From: Hyphomicrobiales bacterium
Lineage (GTDB): Bacteria; Pseudomonadota; Alphaproteobacteria; Rhizobiales; Rhizobiaceae
Assembly (NCBI GenBank): GCA_900473685.1
Contig: UCNE01000005.1
Coordinates: 186,001 to 250,000 of the forward strand
Direction of reading: 5' to 3'
DNA length: 64,000 bases
The notes below the pieces were generated by a model that saw only the letters and a list, made by a program, of their open reading frames with translations, did no database searches and was not told the DNA's origin. Shown in pieces: positions 36,510-59,749 of the stretch (positions are counted from its first letter, which is position 1; each line of letters starts with the position of its first letter). The translations under genes and the position numbers were made by a program.

Positions 36510-36656
36510 ATGAACGTAGCACGCACTTTCAACAATTGGCGCAAGTACCGTCAGACGGTCACCGAACTGGGTCGTATGACCTCGCGCGAACTGCGCGATC
36601 TCGGCATCGACCGTGCCGACATCCAGAGCATCGCTCGCGCCTCGGTCGCTCGCTAA
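36510..36656 (+). CDS. DUF1127 small protein
   Basis: 48 residues, MNVARTFNNWRKYRQTVTEL then GRMTSRELRDLGIDRADIQ; this Arg-rich pattern with SRELRDLGI..DI is diagnostic of DUF1127. Such proteins in alphaproteobacteria influence RNA turnover, phosphate and carbon metabolism and stress responses; the role of this copy is unknown. AAAGGGG lies 6 bases before the ATG, and an intrinsic terminator follows, so it is monocistronic. In Rhodobacter a DUF1127 gene precedes the CcsR sRNAs; here the CCTCCTCCC RNA lies 22 kb away. Confidence 0.88.
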   Translation: MNVARTFNNWRKYRQTVTELGRMTSRELRDLGIDRADIQSIARASVAR

Positions 36657-58340: not shown

Positions 58341-58474
58341 GCCTTCTTCCCTGCAATGCAAGCCCGGCTCCGGGCGCCGTATTAAAACGATTTATGGCAG
58401 GACAAGCTATCTGCTACGCGCATAGCGCATGGCTGCCCTGCAAAACTCTGCCTACAATTTAAGCTGAATCAATG

Positions 58475-58642
58475 TATATTAAAACCATCGAAGCAATGCA
58501 CCTCCTCCCGCAGAGCTTCGATATGTAAGCGGCCTCACTCCTCCTCCCAGAGGGCGCTTGCGGAATGGCAACACTCCTCCTCCCAGTTGCCATTCGGTTC
58601 TATTCGAAAGCCTGCCGCACCTCCTCCCGCGGCAGGCTTTTT
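58475..58642 (+). ncRNA. Four-hairpin anti-Shine-Dalgarno sRNA (CcsR/cuckoo-like)
   Basis: Four consecutive stem-loops each present CCTCCTCCC in the loop: stems 58487-58522, 58527-58559 (one G-G mismatch), 58563-58595 (perfect 10 pairs, GAATGGCAAC) and 58607-58640 (perfect 12 pairs, AAAGCCTGCCGC); loops at 58501, 58540, 58576 and 58620. TTTTT follows the last stem, making it the terminator. A TATATT -10-like box (58475-58480) precedes the first stem; the -35 is weak. CCUCCUCCC can pair with ribosome-binding sites and is the hallmark of CcsR/cuckoo sRNAs in alphaproteobacteria. No ORF overlaps. Expression is not shown by sequence alone. Confidence 0.82.
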
Positions 58643-58682
58643 CGATTCTGGGCCTCTGTTTCTTCGTCTCCCATGCAAATAC

Positions 58683-58738: not shown

Positions 58739-59749
58739 TCAGCGGAGCGGCGGTGCGTAGACCAGGCCGCCATGGTTCCACAGGTTGTTCAGGCCACGCT
58801 CGATCTTCAGCGGGCTGTCCTTGCCGAGATGACGCTCGAAGACTTCGCCGTAGTTGCCGACGGCAGAGATGGCCTGGAAAGCCCATTTCGGATCAAGGCC
58901 AAAATTCTTCGAGATCGCGCCGTCGCTGCCGAGGAAACGCTTCTGCGCCACGGTGCCGGTTTCTGCCGTCTTGGCTACGTTTTCCTTGGTGATACCCAGT
59001 TCTTCCGCCTCGATCATTGCGAACAGCGTCCAGCGAACGATCTTGAACCACTGCTCATCGCCCTGACGGACGGCCGGTCCGAGCGGCTCCTTGGAGATCA
59101 CCTCGGGCAGGACCATGTAATTGTCCGGATCGGTCAAAGTCAGGCGTTGGGAATAGAGGGCTGACGAATCTGTCGAATAGACGTCGCACCGTCCTGTGCC
59201 AAATGCCTGGATGGTCTGGTCGGGCTTTTCAAAGGCAATGACGTTGTACTGGATGCCGTTGGCGCTGAAATAGTCGGCCATGTTCTGTTCGGTGGTGGTG
59301 CCGGTTTCGGTGCAGACAGAAGCGCCCGACAGTTCCTTGGCGCTCTTCACGCCGAGATCCTTGCGGATCATGAAGGCCTGGCCGTCATAGTAGTTGGCGC
59401 CGACGAAGCTCATGCCGAGATCGGTATCGCGTGACAAGGTCCAGGTGGTCTGGCGCGACAGGAGATCGACTTCGCCCGACTGCAGGGCGGCAAAACGCTC
59501 CTTGGTCGACAGCGGCACATATTGCACCTTGCTGGAATCGCCGAGCACGGCCGCCGCGACCGCGCGGCAGAAGTCGACGTCGAAGCCTGCCCATTCGCCC
59601 TTATCGTTCGGGCTCGAGAAGCCGAGCACGCCCTGGCTGACGCCGCAGCGTAGTGTGCCGCGTTCGCGGGCAATGTCCAGCGTGCCCGCCTGTGCTGCCG
59701 TACCCGCCAGCGCCGCTGCGGCAAACAATGCAAGAAGTGTTGATTTCAT
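58739..59749 (-). CDS. AapJ-like general L-amino-acid binding protein (orphan)
   Basis: 336-residue periplasmic protein with signal peptide ending GTAAQA|GTLDIARERG. Very close to AapJ: RGTLRCGVSQGVLGFSS, GEWAGFDVDFCRAVAAAVLGD, ERFAALQSGEVDLLSR, TSGLY-like DSSALYSQ, EPLGPAVRQGD, VGNYGEVFERHLG. AapJ serves AapQMP, but no permease or ATPase genes are adjacent, so it must use another Aap/Bra system or its own distant one. It lies 101 bases downstream of the kinase/aminotransferase fusion on the same strand, suggesting uptake of that enzyme's substrate or a related amino compound. Confidence 0.9.
   Translation of the reverse strand: MKSTLLALFAAAALAGTAAQAGTLDIARERGTLRCGVSQGVLGFSSPNDKGEWAGFDVDFCRAVAAAVLGDSSKVQYVPLSTKERFAALQSGEVDLLSRQTTWTLSRDTDLGMSFVGANYYDGQAFMIRKDLGVKSAKELSGASVCTETGTTTEQNMADYFSANGIQYNVIAFEKPDQTIQAFGTGRCDVYSTDSSALYSQRLTLTDPDNYMVLPEVISKEPLGPAVRQGDEQWFKIVRWTLFAMIEAEELGITKENVAKTAETGTVAQKRFLGSDGAISKNFGLDPKWAFQAISAVGNYGEVFERHLGKDSPLKIERGLNNLWNHGGLVYAPPLR

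Follow-up and report, generated by a model that had tools for sequence, protein, structure and literature searches.

The window (the whole 64-kb stretch of DNA that was analysed) carries a copy of the αr14 family of small RNAs in its already known four-hairpin form. It is very likely the gene of a trans-acting αr14 ('cuckoo'/NfeR1) sRNA of the SmelA099 form, which would be transcribed from its own promoter and would use its loops to occlude the Shine-Dalgarno sequences of mainly ABC-transporter mRNAs. The copy places the four-hairpin branch in a genomic setting that much of the host genus retains, between an RND transporter gene on one side and a solute-binding-protein gene on the other, and supplies one concrete candidate target, the neighbouring solute-binding-protein gene. 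Neither this locus, nor its genus-wide neighbourhood, nor the candidate neighbour target was found in those parts of the literature that were searched.

Architecture of the RNA

The motif CCTCCTCCC occurs exactly four times in the window when both strands are scanned, always on the forward strand and at spacings of 39, 36 and 44 bases (Table 1); 0.54 copies are expected by chance, and none of 100 shuffled sequences reached four. The minimum-free-energy fold of positions 58486–58643 (+) consists of four separate, consecutive hairpins with CCTCCTCCC unpaired in every loop, which together with the motif scan confirms the row of four like-looped hairpins proposed in the preliminary description. 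The energy of this fold, −71.8 kcal/mol (z = −8.8), was equalled by none of 200 shuffles. Displayed in the loops is CCUCCUCCC, or CUCCUCCUCCC in hairpins 2 and 3, and the four loop motifs resemble one another and hardly vary across an alignment of 41 relatives.

The stem of hairpin 4 runs into the T-run CTTTTTC, supporting the earlier reading of a structured RNA that ends in a terminator; the terminator scan does not list this hairpin because its loop is longer than the scan permits. The ends of the RNA are taken from its alignment to the listed SmelA099 transcript, which places the 5′ end at about 58486. The feature initially delimited as 58475–58642 therefore stands, with a start about 11 bases too early.

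Table 1 Features of the sRNA locus in window coordinates.
Feature	Position	Strand	Basis
sRNA transcript, inferred, four-hairpin ar14/SmelA099 type, ~158 nt	58486–58643	+	Rfam match, fold, SmelA099 alignment, covariation
Hairpin 1, loop CCTCCTCCC at 58501–58509	58487–58522	+	Motif, fold; scarcely covered by the Rfam ar14 match; included in the alignment of 41 relatives
Hairpin 2, loop motif at 58540–58548, covarying stem	58525–58561	+	Motif, fold, covariation
Hairpin 3, loop motif at 58576–58584, strongly covarying stem	58563–58595	+	Motif, fold, covariation
Hairpin 4, loop motif at 58620–58628, intrinsic terminator with T-run	58606–58641	+	Motif, fold, covariation
Convergent neighbour, ABC solute-binding protein family 3 (SBP_bac_3, AapJ-like), candidate target, ribosome-binding site CCGGAGGAGGACC	58739–59749	-	Motif scan, orthologues, Pfam
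Conserved upstream element: degenerate TGCA-N6-GCAT (LsrB-type) box at 58417–58430 (−69, 6 of 8 letters), overlapping a CGCATGGCTGCCCTGCA box at 58426–58442	58417–58442	+	Counts in four-hairpin promoters
Probable −10, TATATT	58475–58480	+	Sequence, column conservation

Family membership

The preliminary description had related the RNA to the cuckoo/CcsR anti-Shine-Dalgarno sRNAs and proposed a covariance-model search. Run against Rfam over the whole window, the search returned a single match above cut-off, ar14 (RF02344; 58521–58644), and no other family. This match scores 105.5 bits against a gathering cut-off of 58.8, spans the full three-hairpin model (1–123) and covers hairpins 2–4; it supports the proposed relation, as do the four motif loops. 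Members of the αr14 family are reported to comprise three hairpins with hypervariable stems and CCUCCUCCC unpaired in each (PMC10746234, PMC7143759). In the predicted fold of the window RNA, CCUCCUCCC is unpaired in all hairpin loops, and the fourth hairpin, located at the 5′ end, has the same loop and brings the length to the ~160 nt of the SmelA099 form.

The four-hairpin form was described in 2011 as SmelA099 of S. meliloti, with blocking of ribosome-binding sites suggested at the level of the family, and the literature searched, as far as it was accessible, yielded no function for SmelA099 beyond that suggestion. SmelA099 (SMa6570; S. meliloti 1021 pSymA 1328175–1328334, minus strand) is reported as a 160-nt trans-sRNA in a deep-sequencing survey of 2010, an entry repeated in a review. 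This stretch of pSymA aligns end to end with the window RNA, starting at the 5′ base of hairpin 1, ending in the T-run and containing CCTCCTCCC four times. The SmelA099 group is among those for which the 2011 paper reports members in further Rhizobiales families.

Distribution of the four-hairpin form

Four ar14 copies are present in the genome: the window copy, a three-hairpin copy on contig 18 and two tandem three-hairpin copies on contig 24. Across the bacterial family, 182 of 247 genomes contain at least one array of three motifs, and a reversed-pattern control gave zero among the matches listed. Some match is found in all 26 genomes of the host genus, and 19 of them, this one included (18 of the 25 others), carry a copy that aligns over 210 or more bases of a 221-base query, upstream region included, at an identity of at least 86%.

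A covariance model trained on four-hairpin copies finds 63 places with at least 110 bits, distributed over 34 of the 244 family genomes, the line having been set after the genome's own three-hairpin copies scored 82–98 bits. It exceeds 140 bits in only 3 of 199 order genomes, all three from the window's family; both of these genome sets were searched under stricter filters, at which weak matches are lost. The close four-hairpin branch is therefore common in Rhizobiaceae, and the earlier view of the four-loop form, on record as SmelA099 since 2011, as unusual is not supported.

Collapsing arrays with identical cores leaves 42 four-motif arrays, or 43 with the S. meliloti KH46 homologue in L005, in which one loop is changed. 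L061, L074, L075 and L085 appear to be four-hairpin copies with one altered loop, and enter the counts as two- or three-motif arrays. The four-hairpin arrays L037, L085 (its fourth loop altered) and L086 have stems apparently unrelated to those of the SmelA099 branch, which suggests that the fourth hairpin arose more than once. Elsewhere whole sRNA genes are amplified in tandem: five complete three-hairpin αr14 units are listed head to tail at multiples of ~162 bases in L087 (G156:C1:3404000-3408000), and seven at ~150 bases in L088 (G177:C1:877000-881000).

Covariation of the stems

Alignment A1 comprises 41 of the 43 distinct four-hairpin arrays, the two with unrelated stems (L037 and L086) being excluded, and standard pairs occupy 92.1% of its cells. 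Two-sided changes are observed in 23 of 45 pairs, compared with 11.9 in shuffles, and none of 500 shuffles equalled this number. Controls in which the partners were slid by 1–3 columns gave 8–11 such pairs and 37–49% pairing; because the structure was itself derived from the window sequence, this comparison is biased in its favour.

Most of this signal arises from hairpins 2 (9 of 11 pairs with two-sided changes) and 3 (8 of 10), which show the variable but still paired stems of the αr14 family; hairpins 1 (4 of 11, inner stem counted) and 4 (2 of 13) are nearly invariant. Compensation of stem changes is strong in hairpins 2 and 3 and slight in 1 and 4. The earlier statement that the stems differ and keep pairing thus holds between the four hairpins and, across the 41 relatives, for hairpins 2 and 3, but hardly for 1 and 4; likewise, the compensatory changes that had been looked for in relatives are strong in the two middle stems and scarce in the outer ones. 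Counting against this is hairpin 2, in which only 74.2% of cells are paired, probably because its variable length lets the alignment slip. It is omitted from the RNAalifold consensus of the 41 sequences, and hairpin 3 of L012 is placed wrongly in A1.

In the same alignment, the terminator hairpin is almost letter-identical across genera, whereas hairpin 3 varies freely and its changes are compensated. The near-identity of hairpin 4 could be due to recent spread, to gene conversion or to an additional function.

Genomic neighbourhood

In the fetched flanks of the 18 other full genus copies, an RND transporter gene is found at 13 and a solute-binding-protein gene at 10, with both at 8 and neither at 3. 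In L006/L042 (CP087975), the RND and solute-binding-protein genes beside the sRNA give alignments split into several overlapping segments, representing either broken genes or sequencing errors, and the four sRNA loops are intact.

The lack of an adjacent DUF1127 gene had been singled out as unusual. No such gene lies within the 1.5-kb flanks of the window copy, and the sole DUF1127 gene found on the contig (150 of 185 candidates scored) is 22 kb away at 36516–36626 (+), by which assignment of the window copy to the CcsR type of DUF1127 operon was rejected. The absence itself is not exceptional. Among the 43 distinct four-hairpin arrays, a DUF1127 gene was found in the fetched flank of 16 and none in that of 27, the counts being lower bounds because there were effectively three queries, the best matches all came from two of them and most flanks were 1.5 kb long.

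Upstream of the DUF1127 gene at 36516 is CATGCAGCTAATGCATGG, which by eye is like the boxes upstream of the sRNA, and shared control of the two is possible. On contig 24 of the genome (G000 C24:96015-97416; L001, L002, L092 and L094), two DUF1127 genes follow immediately downstream of the tandem pair of three-hairpin αr14 copies. A paper on attenuation of a DUF1127 gene (PMC12218461) was considered as a possible link; its main text contains none of the terms NfeR1, cuckoo, SmelC, aSD, anti-Shine and CCUCCU.

Promoter region

The NfeR1 gene is reported to have a sigma-70 promoter that NtrC represses and LsrB activates through an LTTR-type box, TGCA-N6-GCAT, at −72 to −60. Seven or eight of the eight letters of this box are present upstream of 17 of the 42 four-motif arrays, 15 of these at −69 or −70, and at least seven upstream of 12 of 39 three-motif arrays; letter-shuffled upstream sequences reach seven in 1.4% of trials and eight in none. 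Located about 60 bases upstream is a second element, TGCATRGCTGCMMTGCA, matched at 13 or more of 17 letters in 38 of 42 four-motif and 11 of 39 three-motif arrays, by a consensus that was derived from the same sequences. Its best position is −60 or −61 in 38 of the 42 four-hairpin promoters. A scan of the window copy with a generic sigma-70 consensus found nothing, and the probable −10 is therefore assigned from position and alignment only. Transcription would start from this promoter at about 58486 and stop near 58643, at the terminator hairpin.

Only one of six copies in S. meliloti was reliably detected by northern blot, according to PMC7143759, and the LsrB-type box of the window copy is degenerate. 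The RNA could accordingly be a degenerate or unexpressed family copy, or mere terminator region of the upstream RND operon. Against these readings stand the four loops and stems, all intact, the compensated stem changes and the retention of the copy, upstream region included, in 18 of the 25 other genus genomes, and we consider them distinctly unlikely.

Proposed mechanism and candidate targets

NfeR1 is reported to silence its tested targets, two solute-binding-protein mRNAs and ntrB, by pairing of its loops with the ribosome-binding site. Its three loops are described as redundant, silencing of ntrB being lost when all three are mutated, and its action as independent of Hfq (PMC10746234). 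As the window RNA has the same loops, occlusion of ribosome-binding sites is its most likely mechanism, and the earlier proposal to this effect is, by this analogy, probable. The rigid stems would each present their loop motif to the strong Shine-Dalgarno sequences GGAGGAG(G) of mRNAs, chiefly those encoding ABC-transporter parts, and pairing would prevent ribosome entry. The four loops may act as redundant seeds, increasing the chance of binding.

Repeated identical loops on variable stems are also reminiscent of CsrB-type RNAs, and the preliminary description had suggested a sponge for a CsrA-like or Hfq-bound set. CsrA-binding RNAs generally present GGA, not CCU. Furthermore, no CsrA gene was found in the genome, which is given as 99.96% complete (no match to PF02599, 13 of 13 candidates scored), and a CsrB/CsrC-type sponge for CsrA was rejected on this ground. 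The genome does encode Hfq, but the reported Hfq independence of NfeR1 makes binding of the window RNA by Hfq doubtful. Sequestration of either protein is thus highly improbable as the function of the window RNA.

The sequence GGAGGAGG precedes an ATG by 3–11 bases at 28 places (27 distinct sites) in the genome, compared with 4 in a reversed control. With the longest ATG frame taken at each, frames of at least 100 amino acids follow 14 of the 27 sites, and shorter ones follow 13, which may not be gene starts. Pfam scanning covered 11 of the 14 long frames (L113, L118 and L121 left out). Four of the 11 encode ABC-transporter parts, namely three solute-binding proteins, the neighbour included, and one ABC ATPase, a share that comes from small numbers. 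The other seven are LysE, a proton antiporter subunit, MnhB, an acyl-CoA dehydrogenase, a fatty-acid desaturase, GFA and a phage tail protein. Exact 9-mer complements of the loop lie upstream of an ATG at 4 places, compared with 2 in the reversed control; perfect 9-base targets are therefore not informative and were set aside.

With 8-base matches at only 28 places, the strongest pairing is selective. This bears on a further reading, in which the RNA would be a general damper that mimics the tail of 16S rRNA and covers any strong Shine-Dalgarno sequence with little specificity, four loops raising its capacity. The loop does, we assume, resemble the 16S 3′ tail, the four loops are alike and nearly invariant in the 41 relatives, and several ar14 copies occur per genome. 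Considering that selectivity and the defined targets reported for NfeR1, we regard a general damper as unlikely.

For the αr14 sRNA acting on particular mRNAs, the neighbouring gene is a candidate target. Its start is one of the GGAGGAGG sites, and GGAGGAG is kept in all 10 of the orthologues read, the full 8-mer being found in two of these besides this genome. Loop–target duplexes are predicted at −17.0 to −18.5 kcal/mol for the neighbour and −10.5 to −13.3 kcal/mol for the genome's own ntrB. A conserved NfeR1–ntrB contact was rejected, the ntrB start of this genome (start codon chosen by eye) having no strong match. Because any strong Shine-Dalgarno sequence pairs with the loop, complementarity alone does not identify targets; the ribosome-binding site of the neighbour is a lead seen after the fact, and a strong Shine-Dalgarno sequence does not call for such an explanation.

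A riboswitch or leader of the neighbouring gene was rejected, as the RNA is convergent with the gene and its 3′ end lies 95 bases short of the end of the gene's stop codon. It is conceivable, though improbable, that the two are kept together in a large part of the genus because the RNA silences its convergent neighbour through the GGAGGAG(G) ribosome-binding site, the extra loop tuning strength or cooperativity. Counting against the main reading, an αr14 sRNA that occludes ribosome-binding sites, are the rarity of exact 9-mer complements before an ATG, the lack of a strong match at the genome's own ntrB, the LsrB-type box with its 6 of 8 letters and the negative promoter scan.

Comparison with known systems

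Closest to the window RNA is SmelA099, in which hairpins 1 and 4 are almost identical in sequence to those of the window RNA and the stems of hairpins 2 and 3 differ. NfeR1 (Smr14C2, SmelC397; RF02344) shares the loop, and three of the four window hairpins fit the αr14 model; relatives of the window RNA also have the LsrB-type box at a similar place upstream. Unlike the window RNA, NfeR1 has three hairpins (115 to 124 nt in the papers), and its published ntrB contact is not evident at the ntrB start of the window's genome. Since the three loops of NfeR1 are reported to be redundant, the four-loop form lends itself to testing dosage or multivalency.

Repeated anti-Shine-Dalgarno loops are likewise found in CcsR1–4 of Rhodobacter sphaeroides (cuckoo group), but these RNAs arise by processing of a DUF1127 (ccaF1) operon transcript driven by an RpoHI/RpoHII promoter, whereas the window copy has no DUF1127 gene. 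We take the R. sphaeroides RNA RS0680a to be a member of the CcsR group. Two anti-Shine-Dalgarno stem-loops are reported for it in the 2011 paper. AbcR1 and AbcR2 also display one CUCCUCCC loop and target ABC-transporter mRNAs; they differ from the window RNA in having two dissimilar motifs and in being bound by Hfq.
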